DNA of 64,000 nt from positions 1-64,000 of the forward strand of contig JAALKI010000006.1 of NCBI GenBank assembly GCA_011088105.1, read 5' to 3'. Position 1 is the stretch's first letter, and every line of letters begins with the position of its first letter. A program made the translations under genes and the position numbers. The notes beneath the pieces were generated by a model, which worked only from the letters and a program-made list of their open reading frames with translations, made no database searches and was not told where the DNA came from. This DNA comes from Nitrospirota bacterium. Its GTDB lineage: Bacteria > Nitrospirota > Nitrospiria > Nitrospirales > UBA8639. Shown here in pieces: positions 26,569 through 51,253 of this stretch.

Positions 26569-27240
26569 ATTCGGTTTAATGCCATCACTTGTCTTCTCGG
26601 GTGCATGCTTGCATTTGGGGGCTGTGAAACATCTTACCAGGCCAAGCAGGTCAAACCATCGGGGTTTCTTGATTATTCTCTTCTCCGAAAAGGTGGAGAA
26701 GGGGAAGCCTTGTATGTGTACCGCAACCCCAAAGCCGATTTTTCGACGTACGACAAAGTTCTCTTTGATAAGGTCATGGTCTGGCGAGGGAAAGGATCAA
26801 CCCTCAATGATTTTTCCCAAGAAGATCTGCAATGTTTAGGAAGCCTCCTGCGGAATAAGGTTCTGGCTGCACTCTCTTCTGATTATGAAATTGTATACGA
26901 ATCTGGACCAGGCGTGATGCGGATTCAAGTCGCCTTAACCGAACTAGAAAAATCATCCACGGTGATGGATACAATCTCCACAGTATTGCCCGCTGCTTTA
27001 GCACTCTCGGAAGTGAAACGAGTTACAACCGGAACGCATGCGTTTGTTGGCAAAGCCAGTATCGAAGGGAAAATTACGGATGGTCAAACAGGAGAACTCC
27101 TTCTCGCGGCTGTTGATCGTCGAACAGGTGGAAAACGCCTTGAAGGTAAAACGTCTTCCCTGCACCAAGTAGAAGAAATTTATCAATTTTGGGCAGATCG
27201 CCTCAGTCAAAGGCTCAGGGAGTGGCGTATTCATAAATGA
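26569..27240 (+). CDS. DUF3313-type lipoprotein, copy 1
   Basis: This is one of four paralogues in the window. The mature domain has the family hallmarks GFL-DYSLLRKGGEGEALYVYRNP, GPGVMRIQVALTE, FVGKASIEGKITD and LLAAVDRRTGG. The first ATG (26605) cuts the signal peptide. Reading on upstream in frame gives MRFNAITCLLGCMLAFGGC, a clean lipoprotein signal, if translation starts at ATT 26569, nine bases after GGAGG at 26555-26559. Function of the family is unknown; the proteins are expected at the outer membrane. Confidence 0.75.
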   Translation: MRFNAITCLLGCMLAFGGCETSYQAKQVKPSGFLDYSLLRKGGEGEALYVYRNPKADFSTYDKVLFDKVMVWRGKGSTLNDFSQEDLQCLGSLLRNKVLAALSSDYEIVYESGPGVMRIQVALTELEKSSTVMDTISTVLPAALALSEVKRVTTGTHAFVGKASIEGKITDGQTGELLLAAVDRRTGGKRLEGKTSSLHQVEEIYQFWADRLSQRLREWRIHK

Positions 27241-28118: not shown

Positions 28119-28163
28119 GCTTTGCTCTTAACTCAAAACCCAATAGACGTTTGGGAGAATAGT

Positions 28164-28889
28164 ATGGCTAAGAATAGTTTTAAAAAAGAATGGTTCTGGA
28201 AGAGGCCTTCTTGGAATTTGAACCAATGGGGCATGCTCTTTATGTTAGGAATTGCCTGTCTGACAGGGTGTAGTGACACTCACCAAGCCAGGGATGTCCA
28301 CCTTTCCGGATTCTTGGGTGATTATTCTTTGCTTCAGCCGGGCGGGGACGGTGAAGCTCTTCTCACCTACCGAAATCCCAAAGCGGATTTTTCTAAGTAT
28401 CGAAAAGTATATGTTGATCCGATCATGGTGTGGCGATGGACAGAATCGGACTCAAGCAAGGTTTCGCAAGAAGACCTTCAACGGTTGGCTAATGAACTCC
28501 GATCAAAAATAATATGGAAGCTGAATCAAGACTATATTATGGTTCCTTCGCTCGGACCGGAAATGATGCGAATCCAAGTTGTCCTTACTGAAGCCACCCA
28601 ATCGAACGTGGCTATGGATATCTTCTCAACGCTTATGCCTGGAGGACGACTCGTCACAGGCACGCAACAACTAGCCACAGGAACCCAAGCGTTTGTGGGC
28701 CGTGCCAGTATCGAAGGAAAGATTACAGATTCTCAAAGCGGAGAGATCTTACTGGCCGCTGTCGATCGACGGGCAGGCGGGAGAACACTCGATGGTTCTA
28801 TGGATTCCTGGGATGACGTTAGGCAAGCCTTTGAACATTGGGCTGTACGGTTAAGTCAAAAGCTTCAGCAATTACGAACCGAAAACTAA
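28164..28889 (+). CDS. DUF3313-type lipoprotein, copy 2
   Basis: This 241-residue paralogue of the 26569 gene has a signal peptide ending in lipobox CLTGC (cysteine near residue 36). The mature domain carries GFLGDYSLLQPGGDGEALLTYRNP, FVGRASIEGKITD and LLAAVDRRAGG. The ATG at 28164 follows GGGAGA; the open frame extends 14 codons further upstream without need. Identity to copy 1 is obvious along the whole length. It is the last gene before the octaheme cytochrome, separated by about 225 bases. Confidence 0.85.
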   Translation: MAKNSFKKEWFWKRPSWNLNQWGMLFMLGIACLTGCSDTHQARDVHLSGFLGDYSLLQPGGDGEALLTYRNPKADFSKYRKVYVDPIMVWRWTESDSSKVSQEDLQRLANELRSKIIWKLNQDYIMVPSLGPEMMRIQVVLTEATQSNVAMDIFSTLMPGGRLVTGTQQLATGTQAFVGRASIEGKITDSQSGEILLAAVDRRAGGRTLDGSMDSWDDVRQAFEHWAVRLSQKLQQLRTEN

Positions 28890-36787: not shown

Positions 36788-37510
36788 ATGCTAAACAATC
36801 GACTGATATTTCAAAGCCTCATTGCTCTAGTCCTGGTAAGCATCGTTGCAGGGTGTGCTCCGACTCGGCAAGCGCGATCTGTTGAAAAGACAGGGTTTCT
36901 TGGTGACTACTCTATGCTGCGTGAAGGAGAACGTGGAGAAGCCTTGATGATTTACCGGAACTCCGGCACCGACTGGGCCTCCTATCATAAAGTCATCCTG
37001 AACCCGGTCACCGTTTGGCTCGGCAAGGATTCCCATATGGAATATGTCAGTGCCATAGATCGCCAACGTTTGGCCGACGACCTCTGGTCCAAGCTGCTGG
37101 CGGTTTTGGAGCAAGATTATCAAATTGTCCACAAGGCTGGTCCAGGTGTCATGCGTGTGCAGGTCGCGATAACTGAAGCAGAAGAGTCTACAATGGGACT
37201 TGATACCGTCTCTTCAATTGTTCCGCAGATGCGAGCATTATCAGAGATCAAGTATCTAGCTACGGGGACTGCTGGATTCGTTGGAAAAGCTAGCGCTGAA
37301 GCAAAAGTCACGGATGCGCAGTCTGGGGATTTATTGTTGGCTGCGGTGGATCGGCGAGCCGGTTCGAAAAGTATCGGTGGGTCGTTGAACACCTGGAATG
37401 ATGTTGAAGAGACATATCAACATTGGGCTTATCAGACGCGCTATCGGCTGTGTAAGTTGCGAGGGGAAAGCAACTGTATCAAACCAGAAGATGTGAAGGA
37501 GAATGAATAA
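36788..37510 (+). CDS. DUF3313-type lipoprotein, copy 3
   Basis: This 240-residue paralogue has a lipoprotein signal (lipobox VAGC, cysteine near residue 23). The domain keeps GFLGDYSMLREGERGEALMIYRN, GPGVMRVQVAITEAEES and LLAAVDRRAGSKS. A C-terminal extra of about 15 residues ends in acidic KENE. AAAAGGAG stands seven bases before the ATG. It follows the transporter remnant by 65 bases. Confidence 0.85.
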   Translation: MLNNRLIFQSLIALVLVSIVAGCAPTRQARSVEKTGFLGDYSMLREGERGEALMIYRNSGTDWASYHKVILNPVTVWLGKDSHMEYVSAIDRQRLADDLWSKLLAVLEQDYQIVHKAGPGVMRVQVAITEAEESTMGLDTVSSIVPQMRALSEIKYLATGTAGFVGKASAEAKVTDAQSGDLLLAAVDRRAGSKSIGGSLNTWNDVEETYQHWAYQTRYRLCKLRGESNCIKPEDVKENE

Positions 37511-37766: not shown

Positions 37767-38408
37767 ATGATGAGGAACATTAAAATTGCCATAGTATGGC
37801 TACTTATTGGTCTCACGCCGGTTTTGATTTCTGGTTGTGCGACCCCGGCTGCCCAGACAGGATTTCTGAAAGATTACTCGAACTTGAAACCCCATCCGGA
37901 CATCGATGGGCGTCATCGGTATATCAATCCCAATATAAACATTGGCGACTATTCCAATTTTATGGTGGACCCTGTTGCGGTGAATCTATCTGATAAGGGA
38001 AAAGAACGAGGAATTGATCAAGAGAAGTTGGGTGAGCTGGCTCAATATTTCCATCAACAAATTGTGGAGCAACTCGAAATAGACTATCGAGTCGTGAAAA
38101 GTGGAGGTCCGGGTGTTGCCCGTGTGCGTGCCTCCATCTCCGATATTGTGAGAACCAAAGTCGCGTTAAATATCCATCCTGGGACCAAGATGACCGGCGT
38201 GGGTTTAGGCGAAGCGGGAATGGAAGCGGAAGTGGTCGATTCAGTCACCGGCAAAACCATTGCCGCGGCCATTGATCATCAGTCAGGGTCCAGACTGGAT
38301 ATTCTAGGTGGTCTTCAATTTTACGGCAATGCCAAATCGATCATGGACAATTGGGCTGAAGACCTGAAGAAATTCATTGATAAGGCTCACGGGAAGTTAT
38401 CTGAATAA
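37767..38408 (+). CDS. DUF3313-type lipoprotein, copy 4 (divergent)
   Basis: This 213-residue protein has the lipobox LISGC (cysteine near residue 24) and GFLKDYSNLKPHPDIDGRHRYINP, GPGVARVRASISDI, and a C-terminal AAIDHQSGSRL. It is the most diverged of the four and lacks the FVGKASxE motif. Start ATG 37767 or 37770 after TAAGGAG. Downstream lies the accessory region. Confidence 0.82.
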   Translation: MMRNIKIAIVWLLIGLTPVLISGCATPAAQTGFLKDYSNLKPHPDIDGRHRYINPNINIGDYSNFMVDPVAVNLSDKGKERGIDQEKLGELAQYFHQQIVEQLEIDYRVVKSGGPGVARVRASISDIVRTKVALNIHPGTKMTGVGLGEAGMEAEVVDSVTGKTIAAAIDHQSGSRLDILGGLQFYGNAKSIMDNWAEDLKKFIDKAHGKLSE

Positions 38409-39902: not shown

Positions 39903-40517
39903 GTGATCCGAATTTTGTTGGAAGCACTCATTGCATGTCATAATTGTGATTTGCTGCACCAGCGTCGGTTTTTGCAACATGGCGAATGGGCAAGCTGTAC
40001 ACGCTGTGGCGCTTGCCTCTACCAGCACAAACAAGATAGCCTGAATCGCACGCTGAGTCTTACCCTATCTTCCTTCATTCTCATCATTGGTGCGAATGTC
40101 TTTCCTTTCATGACCTTTAAGTTGCAAGGTCGGGTGCAAGAAGCCCTTTTGCTAACAGGTGTTCAAGAGCTCTATCTGCAAGAAATGGGGGTCCTGGCTA
40201 TACTGGTCTTGGCAGTAGGGGTCCTGTTTCCATTACTCAAAATCTTCGGTATCCTGTATGTTCTACTCCCCTTGAAGTTAGGAAGGCGGTCCTGGAAGGC
40301 TATTCCAGTGTTTCGATTTGTGGAAACGCTTCACCCGTGGGCCATGATGGAAGTGTACCTCCTTGGTGTAATTGTTGCCTATGTGAAATTGGTCGATTTC
40401 GCCACCATTGTTTTGGGATCTTCTCTCTATGCATTTGTTGGCCTTATTCTCACCATGGCTGCTGCCGATGCTTTTATGGACTCTGAGTCTATCTGGGATG
40501 AGTTGGAGGTCTCATGA
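39903..40517 (+). CDS. pqiA: PqiA-type membrane protein, first half
   Basis: This 204-residue protein has a zinc ribbon (CHNCDLLHQ near residue 13, CTRCGACL near residue 32) and four membrane helices. E. coli PqiA (about 417 residues) contains two such units; here each unit is its own gene. PqiA sits in the inner membrane of the Pqi system for lipid movement between the two membranes. Start GTG at 39903. The next gene overlaps by four bases (ATGA). Confidence 0.88.
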   Translation: MIRILLEALIACHNCDLLHQRRFLQHGEWASCTRCGACLYQHKQDSLNRTLSLTLSSFILIIGANVFPFMTFKLQGRVQEALLLTGVQELYLQEMGVLAILVLAVGVLFPLLKIFGILYVLLPLKLGRRSWKAIPVFRFVETLHPWAMMEVYLLGVIVAYVKLVDFATIVLGSSLYAFVGLILTMAAADAFMDSESIWDELEVS

Positions 40518-41158
40518 GTAGCCTTGCATTGACAGCGGCTCGCGCTTCGTTGCTGAGCTGTCATATGTGTCATAGGCTCAACACAAGCTCTCCTCCATTG
40601 AGTGCCGATTCCACCGTGTGTTGTTCGAGGTGTGGAATGGAACTGCATAGCCGAAAGCCCAATAGTTTGGCTCGTGCATGGGCGCTAACCCTCGCAGCAA
40701 TGATTTTGTATGTTCCCGCGAATATCCTGCCGATTATGACGGTGATTTCCTGGGGAGAAGGGGAACCGGATACCATATTGAGTGGAGTTATTGCACTTAT
40801 CGAGGCAGATATGTTGCCCATTGCGGCGTTAGTCTTCTTTGCCAGTATCACGGTTCCTGTCTTAAAACTTCTCTCCATTATCTATTTATTACTCTCCGTG
40901 CAAACCCACTCCACGTGGCGTCTTAAGGACCGCACGACTCTCTATCGGCTGACAGAAGGAATCGGTCGCTGGTCCATGATTGATATTTTTATGATTTCTA
41001 TCCTTGCTGCACTTGTCAAACTTGAGGCGATTGCAACGATCGAAGCCGGCCCTGGAGCAGTGTGTTTTGCTGCTGTCGTGGTCCTCACGATGTTCGCCGC
41101 TGAGAGTTTTGACCCACGACTTATTTGGGATGTGACGGAGCAAGCCTCCCATGACTGA
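40514..41158 (+). CDS. pqiA: PqiA-type membrane protein, second half
   Basis: This 214-residue protein has a zinc ribbon (CHMCHRLN and CSRCGMEL) and four membrane helices, the second repeat unit of PqiA. The segment PADILPIM-like (ANILPIMTVISWGEGEPDTILSG) is characteristic. It overlaps both neighbours (4 and 8 bases), so the four pqi genes form one tight operon. Confidence 0.88.
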   Translation: MSSLALTAARASLLSCHMCHRLNTSSPPLSADSTVCCSRCGMELHSRKPNSLARAWALTLAAMILYVPANILPIMTVISWGEGEPDTILSGVIALIEADMLPIAALVFFASITVPVLKLLSIIYLLLSVQTHSTWRLKDRTTLYRLTEGIGRWSMIDIFMISILAALVKLEAIATIEAGPGAVCFAAVVVLTMFAAESFDPRLIWDVTEQASHD

Positions 41159-42737
41159 AAAAGATCTTGGCATTGATCCCGACAGTGAGTTGCCTCCTGT
41201 GGCGGTTGAAAAGCGACAGCATCTTTCCTTGGTTTGGCTCATCCCCCTCATCGCAATCCTCATTGGTGTATGGTTAGCTTATAAGACCGTTAATGAGCGA
41301 GGCCCCGTGGTGACGATTTCGTTTAAAGAAGGCTCAGGGCTGGAGGCTGGAAAAACCAAGATCAAGTATCGGGCAGTTGAGGTCGGACAGATTGAAAAAG
41401 TTGAAATCAAGGAGGATTTGTCGGGTGTGGTTGTCACGGCTGCGCTCGTTCATGGAACGGAACCGCATTTAACAGAGAATACAAAGTTTTGGGTGGTTCG
41501 CCCACGGGTAGGTGTTGGAGGGATATCGGGATTAGAGACAATCGTGTCAGGGGCCTATATTGATATCGACCTTCTGCCTGGAACTCCTGCAAGAGAGTTT
41601 AAAGGACTTGAAACTCCTCCACTCGTCAAATCATTTGATCCCGGAACGCAATATGTGTTGAAGGCGAAGAAACTCGGTTCGGCGTATGATGGATCGCCAG
41701 TATATCTTCGTGACATCCAAGTTGGAGAAATTCTTTCCCATGAATTAGCTGCTGATAATGAAAGTGTTCTTCTCCATATCTTTATTAAATCGCCGCATGA
41801 TCAACGTGTGACAACCGGTACGCGTTTTTGGGAAGCCAGTGGCTTGGATGTTTCCATTAATGCAGAGGGTGTCAATGTCCAAATGGCATCGCTGGCTTCC
41901 CTGCTTGCTGGTGGAGTGGCATTTGACACTCCTGTTGGTCAAGGTCAAAACCAACCCAGTCAAGACGGTGCAGCGTTCCCACTGTATGAAAGCTTTAAAA
42001 GTATTCGGGAATCGTCTTTTGTTCGGAAGGTCCCATATCTGATGTATTTTGATGGATCAGTGCGTGGATTGACAGTTGGGGCTCCTGTTGACTTCAGGGG
42101 AATTCGAGTTGGAACTGTGACGGATGTCAAGATGGAATTAAATCCTGAAACACTTAAGTTACGTATTCCCGTTATGGTGGAACTTGAGCCGGAGCGGGTT
42201 ATCGCCACGGACGTTGCTGAATCTTTGATAGAATATGACGTTGTCGGCAAACTTATTCAACGCGGGTTGAGAGCCCAACTCCAAATGAGTAGTTTGCTTA
42301 CGGGGCAACTGTTTGTTTCCCTTGAATTGTACCCCGATCTTCCTAGGAAGAGCCTCGTGATGACTGAGGGTATTCCTATATTTCCGACGGTACCTTCCAG
42401 TATGGATGCGTTACGCCGGACTCTCACGGATGTCGTGGACAAGATTGGCAAACTTCCTCTAGATAAAATCACCTATGAACTATTAGAAACCATCAAAGGG
42501 GCCAAACGATTCACGAATTCTCGAGAGTTGGGTGCCTCTGTGAAATCAATGAATTCGCTCTTAAAAGATCTTCGAACGCTCGCGCATCGATTGGACAAAC
42601 GCGTTGGCACATTGACGGCCAGCACAGAAGAAGGGATGAAGCAACTCTCTGCGACAGCACGGTCAGTCCGTATTCTTTCTGAATATCTCGAACGGCATCC
42701 TGAGGCTCTTCTTCATGGAAAAGGGTCAGGAAAATAA
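41151..42737 (+). CDS. pqiB: PqiB, MCE-domain lipid-transfer protein
   Basis: This 528-residue protein has one N-terminal membrane helix (about residues 25-45, LSLVWLIPLIAILIGVWLAY) followed by three MCE domains and a C-terminal helical stretch. In E. coli, PqiB forms a hexameric syringe-like tunnel across the periplasm for phospholipids. Length is near that of E. coli PqiB (546). It overlaps the previous gene by eight bases; pqiC follows after nine. Confidence 0.92.
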   Translation: MTEKDLGIDPDSELPPVAVEKRQHLSLVWLIPLIAILIGVWLAYKTVNERGPVVTISFKEGSGLEAGKTKIKYRAVEVGQIEKVEIKEDLSGVVVTAALVHGTEPHLTENTKFWVVRPRVGVGGISGLETIVSGAYIDIDLLPGTPAREFKGLETPPLVKSFDPGTQYVLKAKKLGSAYDGSPVYLRDIQVGEILSHELAADNESVLLHIFIKSPHDQRVTTGTRFWEASGLDVSINAEGVNVQMASLASLLAGGVAFDTPVGQGQNQPSQDGAAFPLYESFKSIRESSFVRKVPYLMYFDGSVRGLTVGAPVDFRGIRVGTVTDVKMELNPETLKLRIPVMVELEPERVIATDVAESLIEYDVVGKLIQRGLRAQLQMSSLLTGQLFVSLELYPDLPRKSLVMTEGIPIFPTVPSSMDALRRTLTDVVDKIGKLPLDKITYELLETIKGAKRFTNSRELGASVKSMNSLLKDLRTLAHRLDKRVGTLTASTEEGMKQLSATARSVRILSEYLERHPEALLHGKGSGK

Positions 42738-42746
42738 AGGGAGCAC

Positions 42747-43385
42747 ATGACCAACCCAAAGAAGATGTATACTGGCCGTATACTGCAAGTCCTGTTACTC
42801 AGCACACTTGTGGGATGTGCAGAAACGGCTCCAACAAAATTTTACCTCCTAAATTCTCTTGCCAGTCCATCTAATAATGTTGCGTCGTCGGTCGAATCAG
42901 TTACGCCAGTTGTCGGGGTGGGCCCGATAGATTTTCCTGACTATCTAGATCGGCCGCAAATCATGAGTCGAATCGGTCCGAACGAATTGACCATCCAAGA
43001 GTTTCAACGGTGGGCCGAACCGCTGAAAGATAACTTTTCGAATGTCTTGGCTGAAAATCTTTCCATTCTTCTGCAAACGAATCAGGTAGAAGTTCATCCT
43101 TGGAGAGGTGTACAACCTCGGGATTATCAGATTCAGATTACAGTTACGCGGTTTGACAGTGACCTCAGCGGGCGAACTTTTTTAAGCGCGAGGTGGAAAA
43201 TTCTGTCAAATGAAAAAGAGCCTGTCTTAGTCGTTCGGCAAGTACAGCTCATCCAAGAATCGGTCAGCCAGGACTTTGCAGATGTTATAGCGGCCATGAG
43301 CCAAAATGTTGCAGACTTGAGCCGTGAGATCGCTGATGCACTCAAGGTCCTTCCTCTCAATAGGGTTCCACCCTCCGCGATGTGA
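42747..43385 (+). CDS. pqiC: PqiC, outer-membrane lipoprotein of the Pqi system
   Basis: This 212-residue lipoprotein (lipobox STLVGC, cysteine near residue 24) of the DUF330/PqiC family has the FYLLNSL start and the DFPDYLDRPQIMSR segment. It anchors the PqiB tunnel at the outer membrane. Its last 35 codons and the following spacer are repeated, in decayed form, at 49360-49481. Confidence 0.9.
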   Translation: MTNPKKMYTGRILQVLLLSTLVGCAETAPTKFYLLNSLASPSNNVASSVESVTPVVGVGPIDFPDYLDRPQIMSRIGPNELTIQEFQRWAEPLKDNFSNVLAENLSILLQTNQVEVHPWRGVQPRDYQIQITVTRFDSDLSGRTFLSARWKILSNEKEPVLVVRQVQLIQESVSQDFADVIAAMSQNVADLSREIADALKVLPLNRVPPSAM

Positions 43386-43460
43386 AGCCGGAATAAAACG
43401 CGCATAGCCTTGGAGGGACTTTCTTTTCCATGTTTATGAGTTAATCGTCGGAGAAATCAT

Positions 43461-44318
43461 ATGATGCTTCAACTTCAACGTGTCATGGTTTTCATTGTTC
43501 TTTTGGCCTGGACCGCTTGTTCAGCGACTCAAGGGTCTTCTACGGCTTTGAAATTGGAGCATCAAAAATCCGCGAAGCCCCACGCGGAACGTGGTCGTTC
43601 CCCAAGTAATCACCAATTTGCCAACGGTCATTGGAGCTACCAAGGCGTGGAAGGGCCAGACCATTGGGCGATGCTCAAACCATCATATATGACCTGCGAG
43701 ACCGGTAGGCAACAATCGCCGATCAATATTGTCATGCCTCATGCTGGGTATAACCAAGAAAACCTTGAATTTCACTACAAACCGACACCATTAATAATTC
43801 GGAATAATGGGCACACTATTCAAGTGAACTATCAAAAAGGAAGTTTTTTTCGATTGAACGGTCGGTCATATAAATTGCGGCAATTTCATTTTCACGATCC
43901 CAGTGAACACCATATAGATGGAAAGGCGTATCCTATGGAAATGCACTTAGTCCATCAAGATGAGAAAGGTCATATCGTGGTGATTGGGGTGCTGTTGACT
44001 TTTGGGAAGGAAAATCCTGCCTTTGCACGTGTGGGAGATTGGCTGCAAGCGCATATAGGGCATCGTTTTCCTGCTCAAGGTCAGGAAGTAAGCACTGATT
44101 TGACTTTTGATCTTATGGATGTCTTGCCTGATACAATACACCATTTTTCCTATCATGGATCACTGACTACGCCACCTTGTTCTGAAGGAGTTCAATGGGT
44201 CATTCTGAAGGTGCCTATGAAAATATCGAAAAAGCAGGCTGATCGCTTTATCACAACGATTGGTCAGAATGCCAGGCCGATTCAACCTCTTAACTACCGG
44301 GATGTCCAGGAAAACTGA
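43461..44318 (+). CDS. alpha-carbonic anhydrase, lipoprotein
   Basis: This 285-residue enzyme interconverts CO2 and bicarbonate in the periplasm. It has a lipobox (LAWTAC, cysteine near residue 20), the substrate-pocket motif QQSPINI, zinc ligands in LRQFHFHDPSEHH and MEMHLVHQD, and the SLTTPPCSEGVQW block. Start ATG at 43461 after GGAG. In an autotroph it could secure bicarbonate supply. A decayed second copy lies at about 49490-49880. Confidence 0.93.
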   Translation: MMLQLQRVMVFIVLLAWTACSATQGSSTALKLEHQKSAKPHAERGRSPSNHQFANGHWSYQGVEGPDHWAMLKPSYMTCETGRQQSPINIVMPHAGYNQENLEFHYKPTPLIIRNNGHTIQVNYQKGSFFRLNGRSYKLRQFHFHDPSEHHIDGKAYPMEMHLVHQDEKGHIVVIGVLLTFGKENPAFARVGDWLQAHIGHRFPAQGQEVSTDLTFDLMDVLPDTIHHFSYHGSLTTPPCSEGVQWVILKVPMKISKKQADRFITTIGQNARPIQPLNYRDVQEN

Positions 44319-44449
44319 TGCGAGTCACAGCTGAGGAATTTGTCGAACTAACCATCACGCCAGGGGAAAGGGGAAAAGAGGTGAGAGAGATCGTGAGATG
44401 GATTCTAGCCTCATTGCCTCTAACCCCAAAAGGGTAGAGAAAAAGTACG

Positions 44450-44992
44450 ATGGTTGTACGGACAGGTCGATATGTCAATAAATATGCATGTTTCCTACTT
44501 ATTCTTTTGCTTATGCCCTCGAGCCTTCTTGCAGTTTCGTCCATCGATGATCTTCAAGATTTGACGGGTGGGGTCATTCCGCTCCTTTCATATGACACAA
44601 GAGAAGGAGGAGAATTATTCTCCAATGGCCGTCTTTCCTCTCGTGGACGTGTTTCCTACTTCGTTCGTGTCAAGAACCAGTCTGGTGATCCTATCCAAGC
44701 TGATTCCTTGATCGTTGTCGTCCAGAAAATTCAAGAGAGGGCGAGACTCCGAGATGTTACATCGGACCTTGGTCTTCCAGGTGCCGATGGTCATACCAAA
44801 GAAGGGCACCCATACTTTTATGTGTCACTCAATAACAAGCTGACTCTAGAGCCCTATGGAGAAAGTGAATCTTTTCGACTTGAAATCAAGAATCCCAACT
44901 TGTTTCGCCTTTATCCGCCTGTGTTGCGAGTTCGCGGAATCCGGTTGACGCCTACTCAGGTATACCAAAATGCACTCAATACCAATGATTAG
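44450..44992 (+). CDS. hypothetical exported protein
   Basis: This 180-residue protein has a signal peptide (LLILLLMPSSLLAV, cut near residue 29). The mature part is beta-rich, with a region near residues 60-95 (RVSYFVRVKNQSGDPIQADSLIVVV) that looks like an Ig-like or fibronectin-like strand pattern. I know no family for it. It overlaps the open frame of the next gene. Confidence 0.6.
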   Translation: MVVRTGRYVNKYACFLLILLLMPSSLLAVSSIDDLQDLTGGVIPLLSYDTREGGELFSNGRLSSRGRVSYFVRVKNQSGDPIQADSLIVVVQKIQERARLRDVTSDLGLPGADGHTKEGHPYFYVSLNNKLTLEPYGESESFRLEIKNPNLFRLYPPVLRVRGIRLTPTQVYQNALNTND

Positions 44993-45020
44993 GGAGTTAA
45001 CTGGCCTTATTAATCTGAAG

Positions 45021-46064
45021 ATGAGACTCATGGACCAACTTAAAAAGAGCACAGAAGCTTTCCTGCTTATCATAGTCATACACTTTAGTCTTGTCCTTGT
45101 CGCATGGGGAGAGCCAGCGATGATGAGTCCCCCTCCGGTGAGTGGTCGAACTGTTTCTCCGGAGACCATTGTTCCAGCTGATGTCCTAGCTCGTGTTCAA
45201 TGGTTTCGTGAAGAACTGGAAACCGTTCGGTTCGAGATGGGAAAGCCAAAGCAACCATATAGTACGCCAATGGCTACAGATGCCTTGCCGCATGAAGTGT
45301 ATTTTCAATCGGTCACGTTATTCATCAAGGCCGACCGTCTTGCGTTGGAGTTAACAGGGAGTACAGGGCTAAGACCTCGACCAATTGCCTCCTCAGACAT
45401 TCGTCCCTATCACAACTGGATGTTAGTCACGGCTGCTTACGATCGGCTAATGGTTATTAAGAACGAATTGGGAATTCTCGAGACGGTTTCTGAAAAAGTG
45501 CATCCGCCGTCAACGAAGCCAACCGAAGTCGGACGAGCCATCGTGCAAGCGAGTCGGCAGCTCAACTTGATGCTTCAGAGGCGCTTTTCTTCAAGTGATG
45601 TATTTCAGCAAATTTCGTGGGGTATTCAATATGCCGAAGCTTTGCTCGCTCGGTTTCCCGGTTCTATGCCTTCTTTTTCCTCCCCGTCCTTTGAACGAGG
45701 GAAGCACCCTGGTGAAGTCTTTCTTCGGTTGATCGAGTGCTTTGCCCGGGTGGAGGAAATTGCTCGCCTCTCGGGAATGACCGTTCTCCATCTAGATGAG
45801 AAAGCTGCAGGGGAAGCCGTACGCGATTTTGACGTCCATCCTAGCGACGTCTACGATCTGGCCACCCTTCTTGTCTCCGATCTGACTTATCTGTACGGAA
45901 AACTGAAAGACACTGTGCCCATTCCGTCAGTTCCTTTCCCTGGAAGAAAATTTCCTTCTCATGTCTACCAACAAGCCGGAGTTCTTTTGACGCAACTTCG
46001 CGAATTGGAGAAAAAAGTTAGCGCAAACCCCAATTGGATCTATCAAACGAAACTTCCCAAATAA
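45021..46064 (+). CDS. hypothetical exported protein, helical repeats
   Basis: This 347-residue protein has a hydrophobic N-terminus (STEAFLLIIVIHFSLVLVAWGEP) that acts as signal peptide. The remainder is mostly helical, with repeated RP-rich segments (for example PHEVYFQSVTLFIKADRLALEL and PGEVFLRLIECFARVEEIARL). These similar 'xEV(Y/F)...' units suggest at least three internal repeats. No family recognised. ATG 45021 is chosen for signal-peptide shape; the frame opens at 44970. Confidence 0.55.
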   Translation: MRLMDQLKKSTEAFLLIIVIHFSLVLVAWGEPAMMSPPPVSGRTVSPETIVPADVLARVQWFREELETVRFEMGKPKQPYSTPMATDALPHEVYFQSVTLFIKADRLALELTGSTGLRPRPIASSDIRPYHNWMLVTAAYDRLMVIKNELGILETVSEKVHPPSTKPTEVGRAIVQASRQLNLMLQRRFSSSDVFQQISWGIQYAEALLARFPGSMPSFSSPSFERGKHPGEVFLRLIECFARVEEIARLSGMTVLHLDEKAAGEAVRDFDVHPSDVYDLATLLVSDLTYLYGKLKDTVPIPSVPFPGRKFPSHVYQQAGVLLTQLRELEKKVSANPNWIYQTKLPK

Positions 46065-46095
46065 TGGCTGCTACTTGGTTATTAAGTTGAATGAT

Positions 46096-46384
46096 TCAGC
46101 GGTTCCTTTTTTCTATGAGAAGGGCTGCCGCCCTTTTGGCAACCTTGTCGGTAGCAGGTTGTTGGGAGACCTGCGCGGTAACAATCACTCCTTCAAGTAA
46201 GAGGGCAATTTCCTCGGCTAGTTTGTTAGAGTCTCGTTCCACAGCTTGTTGACAAAGTTCTTGAATATATCTATTCATCAGACGCTTGATTTGATGCAGA
46301 TAGGCTGAATTTAAGTATCTCTTTCGGAATATTCTCTGGTCACGTTGATAAACATACAGCCGTAGAAATCATCTTTTTTAAATC
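46096..46384 (-). pseudogene. TetR regulator remnant (copy A)
   Basis: The last ~95 codons of a TetR-type regulator align to the intact gene at 49977-50555. This copy has an in-frame TAA after SERDT, a frameshift just before RLMNRYIQELCQ, and no N-terminal half. The homology ends in the KK-DFYGCMF segment, where IS1 sequence begins, so an insertion cut the gene. Confidence 0.75.
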
Positions 46385-46830
46385 GGTATTGTTAAATATA
46401 GGATATATTTTCGTTCCCCGTTCCATTGTGCCATTAACCGCATGACCGAATACCGCAACATGGGTTTCGCTTTTGCTGAAACATTTCATTTTCCGACGGA
46501 AGCGTGCCAGAAAATGTCGAAACAAACAATTGTAGCCTTACACGGTGTATGTTTCGGTCTTGCATTGCCTGTGTTTCTCTGAGGGGACAAATTGCTTATA
46601 GGGTTCCCAAGAGTCGGTCATGACAGCCGCAATTATTGGACTCTCGATAGCCGCCCATAATCGTGCTTCGGTCACAACGCCTCGGGTGCCAGTGACAACA
46701 TAGAGGAAGCGGTTCCCAAGTTGATCAACAGTAATCCAGACCCAGCAATAGTTTTTATGCCCCACGTAGCTATGCAATTCATCGAGTTCGACGATCTGAG
46801 CGACTTCCTCCTTTTTTTACATGACAACGT
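46385..46830 (-). mobile_element. IS1-family transposase remnant
   Basis: The minus strand encodes an IS1 InsB-like C-terminal domain: ELDELHSYVGHK, WVWITVDQLGNRFLYVV, VMTDSWEPYKQFVP, and the final LARFRRKMKCFSKS. One in-frame TAA sits between ETYTV and GYNCLF. The N-terminal part is missing, and I cannot see terminal repeats. It is inserted into the TetR remnant. Confidence 0.75.
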
Positions 46831-47643
46831 ATTGGGATAGCACCGATATTCCTGGCCCCTCGTAGACACGGTCTTTGAGGCGTTGCTCAATGGTCTCAGA
46901 AGTATAAATAGACGCGTCATAGACAACCACAAGACTTTCATCGCCCGGTTGTAAAAAGGTCTGTTTGCCGAATTCTGTATACCGTGTGGCTCCGATGCTT
47001 ATGATGGCGTATTCTGGATAACTGGCCTGTCGAATCAGTTCTGCAATCGATTCTAGTGAACCTTCATCAATTTGAGCATTCATTCTCTCAATGATCCATT
47101 CTTGTAAGACCTCGTAAAATAGCTGTACCCCAGAACAGGACTATTAATTCCATAGGTATGGAATTGTTCCTCTCGCCTTAAGAAGGAAGCAACATGAAAT
47201 GGGTCCATGACCCCTCCGCATGTAAAGCGATCGATGTCAATCAGGGTTTGCGACAAGCCTTTCGAGTGGCATCCCCAGTTTTTCTTTTCACTAATTTTGT
47301 GCGCGCTTGTTTTTCTAATCGAGCAGTCATTAGCCGCAGCAAACTTCACTGGACGGAGGTCGTGGACTGTATGTTTCTGGTAGCCCAGCTGACAGATGAG
47401 GGCTATTTCGGGTTCTATTTGCACGTGGCTACCGTCGTGAGGGCAGGTAAGGTGTGTAGACGAAATCGGATAGGTGCTCAGAAACGAAGAGGTATATCCC
47501 GGGACATAAAAGGGAAACAACCCTTTTGGCTGATGGTTGTCAATGACTTGGATATGGACAAACTCCTGAGCTTCTCCTGCCTGTTCTAAATGTCCAGTGA
47601 AATTCCCAACCACTCCAAGCCCGATCATGCGTTGAAGATCCAT
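46817..47643 (-). pseudogene. DUF5718-type protein, frameshifted
   Basis: Two frames make one protein. The first (ATG 47643 after AAAGG) reads MIGLGVVGNFTGHLEQAGEAQ, ISEKKNWGCHSKG, then leaves the family pattern after GYSYF. The second continues with LQEWIIERMNAQ, ISIGATRYTEFGKQTFLQPGDES and VVVYDAS. The shift is at the run of four A (plus strand) at 47116-47119. The C-terminus ends at the IS1 junction. The family is widespread but functionally unknown. Confidence 0.65.
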
Positions 47644-47679
47644 GCGATACCTTTTGACGTGCTCTGTCTTTGCTGACAA

Positions 47680-48069
47680 CGTGTTCTTTGCTATTGTACC
47701 TCAGCTTCACGTGTTCATACAGCTCGGCGGGCAGACTGATGCTAAAAGATTACCGACTGTGAGAAGCACGGAGCTTCGTCACCGATGATCACAATACTCA
47801 CAATCATCAACCCGATGCAGCCACGTAGGTACTTCTGTGAGATGTTCCAGGATAGACTATTCTAGCAAATTTGATATGCAATGGCTGGCTATACTTCATC
47901 TTGTGATGGGTTGGCTTCTTGGATCCGTGGCACCCAATTCGTTAGGCTGCATCTCTCACCAAAAAGGAGACTGTAGGATTTTCTGGAAATCAAATCGTTT
48001 CTCTCATTGGGTATGTGAACAAAACAGTGATAGCATGTGACGCAACTATGACAGTCACAAAGTTTTAGG
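47680..48069. other. stretch without recognisable gene
   Basis: About 390 bases between the DUF5718 remnant and the rhodanese fragment. I find no open frame with protein-like content and no clear signal. Confidence 0.4.
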
Positions 48070-48159
48070 TCGCTTTTCCGTGTACATCAATCAAGACTAG
48101 GCCTTCTCGCCCTAGATTTTGTGCCAATGTTTCAGTGTCGATGAAATAGAGACTTGTCA
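48070..48159 (-). pseudogene. rhodanese-like 5' fragment
   Basis: The minus strand from ATG 48159 reads MTSLYFIDTETLAQNLG, then LVLIDV, the beginning of a rhodanese-like domain, and stops after about 30 codons. An open frame further upstream on the minus strand (48173 to about 48345, with APYVFTIYERSFPLN) may be the tail of another lost gene. Confidence 0.4.
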
Positions 48160-48345
48160 TACGTGTATCCTTTTATCCAAGGGTTGTGTGATTGGGGAGC
48201 GGCAGTTGTCCTTCAGGTGGACTTGCACATCCTCTGTGTGGCGTAATCGGTTGGGCGTCGAGAATCTCTGCCAAATTGGTATTTAACGGGAATGACCGCT
48301 CATAAATGGTAAAGACATAGGGGGCATTAGTCCGTAACTCATATT

Positions 48346-49171
48346 TTTCTAGCTTCGATAACTATTTCAAAGAATTAGAGTGTCGTGCTACGGATCGAAA
48401 TAACTTTCCTGTCACATTTAATGAAAATACGTTGTATCACTTTCAAGTAACCTTCAGTCCCAATCAGGCTGAAAAAGGGAAACGGCCTAAAGAGGCTGCT
48501 GTGTTTTTTGGATTTACTGGGAAATATCGAAAGGATTATACCCGGCCTCCTCAAGAGAAAGAGAGCATTGGCCCTGGTACATCAGGGATTGAACTCCTTG
48601 GACATCTCATGGAACTCACACCTGGTCCGCTCAAGAAATTTGTCAAAAACAACTCAATGCCCAAGTCAAAAAACTCTTTCAATATGAATTCACGGGAACG
48701 TTTCAAGAAATCTTCCGCGATGAAAAAACCAAGGGGGAAGTCTTTGCTTCTGGGATTGGCATTTCTCCCTCGAGCGCCTTAGAGGTGATTGATATTGCGT
48801 TGCGCACGTATGAAGATTTCAACACTATTATGCCTGTTCTGATTACTTTGCGGTTTGTGAAAGGCACCAAGGCTACGCTCGGATTCACCAAATATAAACC
48901 GACCTGCGTCATCGAACTAGATGGTTTAAACACTCAAAACATGCAGGAGTACGTCAACTTGGTATGGGAACTCGTTGAACAAGCCGGCATCCCTTTTACC
49001 ATGCATTGGGGGAAATTTAATGAACATTTGAATTCGAAGCGCATTAAAGCTATGTATGGTCCCAAGCGAACCCAATGGATTAAAAGTCGAGAGACGCTCT
49101 TGAGTGCTGAGGTTAGGCGGGTCTTTACGAATGATTTTTTGAAGCGAGTAGGGCTGTGCAATATAAATTGA
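48346..49171 (+). pseudogene. FAD-linked oxidase, C-terminal part, frameshifted
   Basis: The first frame (FKELECRATDRNNFPVTFNEN to VKNN) and the second (QLNAQVKKLFQYEF to the end at 49171, with RFVKGTKATLGFTKY and MHWGKFNEHLN) join across the A5 run at 48645-48649. Together they match the C-terminal half of aldonolactone/sugar-oxidase-type flavoproteins. The N-terminal FAD-binding half is missing, so the gene is dead even if the frameshift is an error. Confidence 0.65.
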
Positions 49172-49359
49172 GGACTCCCCGTTAAGAAAGTAGATGCTCA
49201 ACAATAGACAATAAGTGCTTCCTTTGCTTTCATAAACTTGGCCATGTGACGATCAAGCATGTTGAACAACTATTGAACCATCGTCCACGGGAGTATTGAC
49301 ACTCTCTTCCCCCGTACGAAGTCTTTCGCAAAGCCTGTGGTGCACTTCAGGATTGAATG

Positions 49360-49481
49360 TGGCCAGGTCTTTGCCGATATCATCGCGGTCATGAGCCAAA
49401 ACATTGCAGGCTTGAGCCATCAGATCTCGGATGCACTCAAGGCCCTTCCCCTCAAGAGAGTCCCGCCTTCCGCAATGTGAA
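49360..49481 (+). pseudogene. pqiC 3'-end remnant (copy B)
   Basis: It aligns with 43264-43385 of pqiC and keeps the stop codon: VFADIIAVMSQNIAGLSHQISDALK in this copy. Nothing of the rest of pqiC is present upstream, where the FAD-oxidase fragment ends. Confidence 0.7.
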
Positions 49482-49489
49482 GCTGGAAG

Positions 49490-49880
49490 AGAATGTGCAT
49501 AGCCCAGAGAGGGCTGCCTTTTGCTATGTGGATATGTTAATTGTTCGAAAATTTACGATGCGTCAACTGCAATGTGTCATTGTGTGCATGGCTTTTGTTG
49601 CCTTGACCACTTGTGCAGTTACGCAAGAAGCTCCGATTATTATGGAAGAGGCGTCTGTGTCTGCTACTTAGCCTTATGGAGAACGTGACCGTTTTTCAAA
49701 CGATCACCAGTTTCAGATGTGCGTTGGGAATATCAAGGCGTAGAGGGGCTCAACCATTGGGCCAATGCTCTATCCCTCATATATGACCGGTGAAGCAAGC
49801 AGGCAACAATCACCGATCAACGTTTGGTCAGAATGCTCGTCCAGTTTAACTACTTCGAGGACGAGACCTTCAGGAAGAGT
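49490..49880 (+). pseudogene. alpha-carbonic anhydrase remnant (copy B)
   Basis: The spacer after pqiC, the lipoprotein signal region (MRQLQCVIVCMAFVALTTC) and the QGVEG-HW ... QQSPIN segment of the 43461 gene are recognisable, followed directly by QNARP-type sequence from the C-terminus. About 530 bases between these motifs are deleted and there is a stop at 49671. It is a dead copy. Confidence 0.7.
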
Positions 49881-49976
49881 AGTTTCGCATAACTCAGATG
49901 CACCAGAAAGAGGTCCAGCAAAGGCTTTTCCGCTTTCATTGATTCAGAAGCAGATATTGAGAGATTTTGGCATTGG

Positions 49977-50555
49977 TCAACAGCTTCTTTTGTCTATGAG
50001 GATGGCTGCTACCCTTTTGGCAATCTTAGCCGCAGTGGGTTGTTGAGAAACTTGCGCAGTGACGATGGCCCCTTCGAGTAAGAGGGCAATTTCCTCGGCG
50101 AGTTTGTTAGGTTCCCGCGCCATGAACTTTTGACAAAGTTCTTGAATATACCCATTCATCAGCCGCTTGTATTCGATGCAGATATGTCGAATTGAAGCAT
50201 CATTTTTTGAATATTCTCCCGTCGCATTGATAAACATGCAGCCATAGAAATTTTCTTTTTTGAACCATTTTTCGGCGACATCAAAGATAGCCAGAAGGCG
50301 TGTCTTGGGTGTCCGGGCCTGCCTGTCAACTTGCCTCATAAATTCATTACGAAATCTGTCTGCATAGTGGTGTAACGTTGCCAGAATAAGTTCTTCTTTT
50401 GAGCGGAAATGCGTGTAGAGGGTCTTTTTCGTCACGCCAGACCGTTCTGCAATGGTGTCAATCCCTGTGGCATGAAAGCCATCCTTTGCAAATAGCTCGA
50501 TTGCGGTTTCGATCAATTGTGTTCTTTTCGAGGAAGCTTCAGATTTTTTTCTCAT
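49977..50555 (-). CDS. TetR/AcrR-family repressor
   Basis: This 192-residue regulator has an N-terminal helix-turn-helix (AIELFAKDGFHATGIDTIAERSGVTKKTLYTHF) and a C-terminal ligand-binding domain with a cysteine in NFYGCMFINA. The ATG at 50555 sits directly beside an operator (50558-50579), so it is probably autoregulated. It diverges from the YHS gene. The frame is open four codons further, to 50567. This is the intact member of the duplicated tetR pair. Confidence 0.9.
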   Translation of the reverse strand: MRKKSEASSKRTQLIETAIELFAKDGFHATGIDTIAERSGVTKKTLYTHFRSKEELILATLHHYADRFRNEFMRQVDRQARTPKTRLLAIFDVAEKWFKKENFYGCMFINATGEYSKNDASIRHICIEYKRLMNGYIQELCQKFMAREPNKLAEEIALLLEGAIVTAQVSQQPTAAKIAKRVAAILIDKRSC

Positions 50556-50557
50556 AT

Positions 50558-50579
50558 AAGTATACAAATTTGTTTACTT
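50558..50579. promoter_or_regulatory. TetR operator 1
   Basis: Palindrome AAGTATAC-AAATTT-GTTTACTT, with one mismatch between the arms, lies immediately upstream of the tetR start. It matches operator 2 at 50736-50757 in 20 of 22 positions. Confidence 0.75.
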
Positions 50580-50726: not shown

Positions 50727-50756
50727 TTGCCTATAAAGTATACAGATTTGTATACT
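50727..50756 (+). promoter_or_regulatory. promoter of YHS gene
   Basis: TTGCCT (50727-50732), an 18-base spacer and TATACT (50751-50756) form a plausible sigma-70 promoter 36 bases before the YHS start codon. Operator 2 covers the -10 box and most of the spacer, which would allow repression by TetR. Confidence 0.5.
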
Positions 50757-50757
50757 T
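50736..50757. promoter_or_regulatory. TetR operator 2
   Basis: Perfect palindrome AAGTATAC-AGATTT-GTATACTT with 8-bp arms. It lies between the divergent tetR and YHS genes and overlaps the promoter of the latter. Confidence 0.8.
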
Positions 50758-50791: not shown

Positions 50792-51253
50792 ATGAAATTG
50801 ATGAACGTATCATGCATGCCAGCACTCGTCCTATTTCTGGCATTTGTCGCGACCCCGGCCTTTGGCCAGGATTACACTCAAAGTACACCAGGGATTAGTG
50901 GTTATGACCCTGTTGCGTACTTCACAGAGGGTGCCTCTCAACGTGGGAGCGGGTATCACGTGGCCGATTACAAGGGTGTTACGTATGCATTTGTGAGTGC
51001 AGAGACCAAAAAAATGTTCGAAGCCAATCCCGAAAAGTACATCCCCGCTTATGGGGGGTGGTGTGCCTATGGCATGGCGGTTGGCAAGAAGTTTGTTGCC
51101 GATCCAGAGGTGTGGAAAATCGTTGAAGGAAAGCTTTATCTGAATTTAGACAAAGGTATTCAAGGTAAGTGGAATCAGGATATCCCTGGCCATATCAAAA
51201 AGGGAGACGTGAATTGGGCTGAGATCAAGGACAAGGCCCCATCTGATTTATAA
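50792..51253 (+). CDS. exported YHS-domain protein
   Basis: This 153-residue protein has a signal peptide cut after about residue 25 (TPAFGQ) and a YHS domain (GYDPVAYFTEG, FVSAETKKMFEANPEKYIPAYGGWCAYGMA). YHS domains are often found with metal-handling proteins; this periplasmic subgroup has no proven role. RBS AAAGGAG precedes the ATG. A TetR repressor is encoded divergently and two operators lie in between, so it is likely induced by the ligand of that repressor. Confidence 0.88.
   Translation: MKLMNVSCMPALVLFLAFVATPAFGQDYTQSTPGISGYDPVAYFTEGASQRGSGYHVADYKGVTYAFVSAETKKMFEANPEKYIPAYGGWCAYGMAVGKKFVADPEVWKIVEGKLYLNLDKGIQGKWNQDIPGHIKKGDVNWAEIKDKAPSDL

Follow-up and report, generated by a model that had tools for sequence, protein, structure and literature searches.

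Two copies of a pqiC, alpha-carbonic anhydrase and tetR block in a Nitrospirota bacterium, probably an old local duplication returned to single copy

How does a bacterial chromosome come to carry the same run of genes twice, with a single functional copy of every gene remaining? The question is raised by a locus of a draft Nitrospirota genome (2.6 Mb, 70 contigs, 97.6% complete), where the end of pqiC, an alpha-carbonic anhydrase gene (CA) and a tetR gene occur on the left as copy A and on the right as copy B; pqiC-A, CA-A and tetR-B are intact and their partners are broken. The window analysed here comprises the first 64,000 positions of a contig of 98.7 kb. A preliminary description had read the locus as a duplicated block with complementary decay, and the duplicated block itself proved to be real: positions 43267-43726 match 49362-49820 at 71% identity (466 columns, E 6e-59) and 46106-46382 match 49987-50264 at 80% identity (279 columns, E 4e-67), both on the same strand, collinear and far above chance expectation. 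A search beyond the edges of these stretches gave no residual homology between the copies. The offset from A to B amounts to about 6094 bp at pqiC/CA and about 3881 bp at tetR, because copy A alone holds a 180-aa and a 364-aa gene. We consider an old, direct local duplication of at least the pqiC 3' end, CA and tetR, followed by an ordinary return to single copy, to be the probable origin of this arrangement (features in Table 1).

Table 1. Features of the duplicated locus, in window coordinates.
Feature	Position	Strand	Evidence
pqiC-A, intact	42747-43385	+	PF03886, 3e-42
Left homologous segment of copy A: end of pqiC, intergene and 5' portion of CA	43267-43726	+	match to 49362-49820
CA-A, alpha-carbonic anhydrase, intact, 285 aa	43461-44318	+	PF00194, 2.3e-48
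Gene pair of copy A only (180 aa, 364 aa), without Pfam match	44450-46064	+	ORFs between CA and tetR
tetR-A remnant: C-terminal half with a stop and a frameshift	46096-46384	-	80% to 49977-50264
IS1-family remnant, 3' half	46385-46802	-	PF03400, 2.2e-6, above cut-off
DUF5718 gene, split over two frames	46817-47679	-	PF18985, 1.4e-63 and 1.5e-27
284-bp copy of contig C12:25886-26169 of the same genome	48066-48349		95% identity
FAD-linked oxidase 3' fragment (ALO family), frameshifted	48362-49171	+	PF04030, 7.8e-5, just under cut-off
IS30-like transposase C-terminal tail, one internal stop, tentative	49240-49356	+	38-aa C-terminus alignment
pqiC-B tail, last 38 codons and stop	49362-49480	+	98/119 bases identical to A
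CA-B pseudogene: 530-base deletion, two stops, frameshift	49558-49886	+	alignment to CA-A
tetR-B, intact, 196 aa	49977-50567	-	PF00440, 2e-17
Putative TetR operator 1	50558-50579		22-bp palindrome
Putative TetR operator 2, upstream of YHS gene	50736-50757		22-bp palindrome
Gene for a YHS-domain protein, divergent from tetR-B	50792-51253	+	NF041384, 3.8e-42

The gene names given in the preliminary description hold by profile matches to all three intact genes, and every lesion it had listed could be found again: the stop, frameshift and IS1 fragment of tetR-A, the bare tail of pqiC-B and the 530-base deletion of CA-B. pqiC-A, by its PF03886 match the gene of a PqiC-type lipoprotein, is the last gene of a pqiA-pqiA-pqiB-pqiC operon (39903-43385), for which the NCBIfam profiles gave a match to PqiB and a weak one, below cut-off, to pqiC. 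In CA-A the PF00194 match spans residues 65-284 and HFH and EMHLVH motifs are visible in the translation; the domain is that of an alpha-carbonic anhydrase with zinc-binding histidines. CA-B is without the counterpart of A positions ~43727-44256. Ahead of this gap its reading frame is shifted once and interrupted by two TAG codons, and 3' of the gap anhydrase sequence can still be recognised by comparison with the tails of CA-A and of the gene in relative G016 (0 of 1000 shuffles). A second, divergent alpha-carbonic anhydrase gene (~50% identity) lies at the end of another contig (C52:26496-27131; L096:17497-18135).

tetR-A retains roughly codons 102-196, in which a TAA codon and a shift by one base break the frame. 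For tetR-B, which matches its orthologues in 17 relatives at 61-69%, translation more likely begins from the ATG at 50555. In a tree with these 17 relatives the two copies are sisters (UFBoot 100), with a branch of 0.25 for the pseudogene and of 0.07 for the intact copy, i.e. about 3.5 times longer. Third codon positions hold 24 of the 42 differences between the tetR copies (P 0.0013 against an even spread) and 12 of the 21 between the pqiC tails, so that at least one copy of each must have been under selection; the data hold no evidence for either gene that both were. A branch-specific codon model did not separate a neutral from a constrained tetR-A (lnL -943.8 free, -944.9 with omega fixed at 1, 2 lnL difference 2.3, with unstable branch estimates), and the stop-free last 64 codons of tetR-A are uninformative, since P is 0.23-0.49 under neutrality.

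The inner edges of the two copies are still readable. The IS1-family remnant next to tetR-A is 78-80% identical to three longer IS copies in relatives, and all three alignments end at 46385. In the longer copies the inverted terminal repeat begins with GGCATTGTTAATTT or near it, the window from 46385 reads GGTATTGTTAAAT, and tetR homology extends to 46384. The remnant comprises a DDE transposase domain and a terminal inverted repeat, with one end only left. Since tetR homology stops exactly at this terminal repeat, the sequence evidently records an IS1-family insertion that cut tetR-A. On the other side, 38 aa of 49240-49356 can be aligned to the C-terminal end of a transposase of the IS30 family (0 of 5000 shuffles), and this tail ends 5 bp before the start of pqiC-B, which suggests that an IS30-like element caused that edge. 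Profile searches of the stretch, which retains only these C-terminal 38 aa of the transposase, gave no Pfam or NCBIfam match, a plasmid search with the tail returned nothing useful, and the best match in a phage collection (E 4) served only as an IS30 yardstick.

Between these edges, 46385-49361 is a 3 kb mosaic of IS remnants and gene fragments. The split of the DUF5718 gene is probably one frameshift, and the gene has no match among 59 relatives. The 284-bp piece shared with contig C12, which spans the start of a rhodanese-like gene and the end of a cytochrome-like gene, is a recent copy. The oxidase fragment is 80% identical in nucleotides and 87% in protein to a gene of relative G013, where it is intact. 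The 180- and 364-aa genes within copy A form a conserved pair elsewhere in several relatives; no trace of them was found on searching copy B, and the data are compatible with gain by A or loss by B alike.

To the right of tetR-B, two AAGTATACARATTTGTATACTT-type palindromes lie between it and the YHS gene (0.00 expected by chance in the window); the genome has no third one even when up to 3 mismatches are allowed. Most relatives with a tetR-YHS pair have a similar palindrome between the two genes, and the YHS gene adjoins tetR in G006, G008, G011 and G017. TetR-B therefore likely represses its own and the YHS gene's promoters through these putative operators, an arrangement like that of other TetR repressors with a divergent target. 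The preliminary description had called the pqiC end, the anhydrase and tetR a unit that occurs twice; because the putative operators flank only the tetR-YHS intergene, the three are neighbours and no functional unit. If TetR-B acts only on itself and the YHS gene, the loss of tetR-A would not matter to the anhydrase or pqiC.

The origin of the two copies can be weighed against these data. Since the tetR copies are sisters at full support, the duplication most likely arose inside this lineage and not by the merging of two strains. The junction of two strains or species in one contig during assembly, which a draft in many contigs might invite, is highly improbable, since collapsed strains would be more alike than 71-80%, GC is even (0.45-0.49), contamination of the genome is 0.34%, the locus lies within a single 98.7 kb contig and the lesions are typical of pseudogenes. 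A more serious but still unlikely reading is that one block, B or A, arrived by horizontal transfer from a related species and recombined beside the resident one, so that the 20-29% divergence between the copies would be species divergence. It draws on the partly foreign debris around copy B, namely the oxidase fragment and the DUF5718 gene, and on a four-point test of the CA core, in which A groups with the anhydrases of G001 and G016 to the exclusion of B (A pairs with one or the other at bootstrap 0.66-0.93), as would be seen if the two anhydrase copies predated that split or if B came from elsewhere. However, this core comprises 99 bp only and CA-B is a fast pseudogene, so that long-branch attraction offers a fair explanation; the test contradicts weakly what the tetR tree supports, namely that each copy is the other's closest relative. 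At their 5' ends, moreover, CA-A resembles CA-B and is unlike the genes of G001 and G016, and this common 5' end and the linkage of pqiC to CA, present in A and B, were met in no relative and the linkage in no other genome searched, which again argues for duplication. A scan of named genomes found only distant anhydrases (41-43%).

Both truncations could also stem from one event, if a tandem duplication had its breakpoints inside pqiC and tetR, in which case no decay of pqiC-B or tetR-A would be required. It is indeed precisely at their inner ends that the copies are truncated, as this would predict, but each edge has its own local cause in the IS1 terminal repeat at tetR-A and the IS30-like tail at pqiC-B, and the 3 kb of debris would need to fall exactly at the joint. 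We consider such an origin quite improbable and, with the IS1 terminal repeat lying exactly at the edge of tetR-A, have set it aside as the source of both truncations.

For an old local duplication with subsequent loss, we infer a tandem geometry at the start and the following order of events. A segment with at least the pqiC 3' end, CA and tetR would have been copied beside itself in direct orientation. In copy A, an IS1-family element would then have entered tetR, with the rest of tetR and half of the element being lost later; in copy B, a presumed IS30-like element would mark the edge inside pqiC, and the anhydrase would have lost 530 bp and acquired stops and a frameshift. The space between the copies would have been filled by gene fragments of foreign and of internal origin. 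The result would be two separate systems: to the left, pqiABC together with an anhydrase of the surface or the periplasm, and to the right, a TetR protein that represses its own promoter and that of the YHS gene.

What remains of the proposed complementary loss is duplication followed by loss, to which the same gene order, the sister relation of the tetR copies and the common CA 5' end all point. The notion of a neat reciprocal decay is overstated. Because both truncations are the inner edges of one IS-bounded, debris-filled gap, the outer genes, pqiC on the left and tetR on the right, are whole largely through geometry, and only for the anhydrase was the choice of copy free. Furthermore, nothing in the data points to a pqiC-B that was complete at any time. 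A single ancestral block, or pqiC-CA or CA-tetR neighbours, were found in none of the relatives searched; none of these belongs to the same genus, so that the absence is no disproof.

In the duplication-random loss model (TDRL/DRL) of gene-order change, as set out for animal mitochondria (PMC5745709), a block is duplicated and either copy of each gene is then lost. The present block was likewise duplicated and lost one copy per gene; unlike the mitochondrial cases covered there, its losses are bounded by IS elements and the functional gene order is altered only in spacing. In its IS1-family and IS30-like remnants, frameshifts, internal deletion and fragments, the locus does not differ in substance from decay in other IS-rich bacterial genomes. 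No new mechanism is involved, the case being one of ordinary duplication and differential loss. Its value lies in a return of a duplicated block to single copy that is dated by divergence, in a bacterium outside the usual models and with the IS boundaries at the inner edges still legible. As by-products, it yields a regulatory module of tetR and the YHS gene, with its two putative operators, and the probable relocation of an anhydrase gene.

The latter emerges from a third anhydrase relic, an 81-bp 3' end at contig C57:71474-71554 (L094:7474-7554). In G001 and G016 the anhydrase gene is followed by a 160-aa gene, whose orthologue here lies at 72678-73157 of the contig, about 1.1 kb downstream of the relic and with a DUF3313 gene between them. 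With the relic lying near the orthologue of the 160-aa gene, the anhydrase gene probably moved from the relic site (near 71474), its probable ancestral position, to its present place next to pqiC, and did so ahead of the duplication. A rather improbable account of that movement is that short pieces of the chromosome were copied repeatedly: the gene would have gone from the relic site to behind pqiC and on to copy B, and the same process would have brought the C12 piece into the debris. The G001 anhydrase is itself broken by a frameshift near codon 157 (L097:7425-8142). In addition, several lipoprotein-like paralogues share a GFLxDYSxL motif close to the N-terminus, at 26605-27240, 28122-28889, 36788-37510, 37767-38408 and L094:7763-8494; 36788-37510 and L094:7763-8494 match DUF3313, and the others were recognised by eye only.
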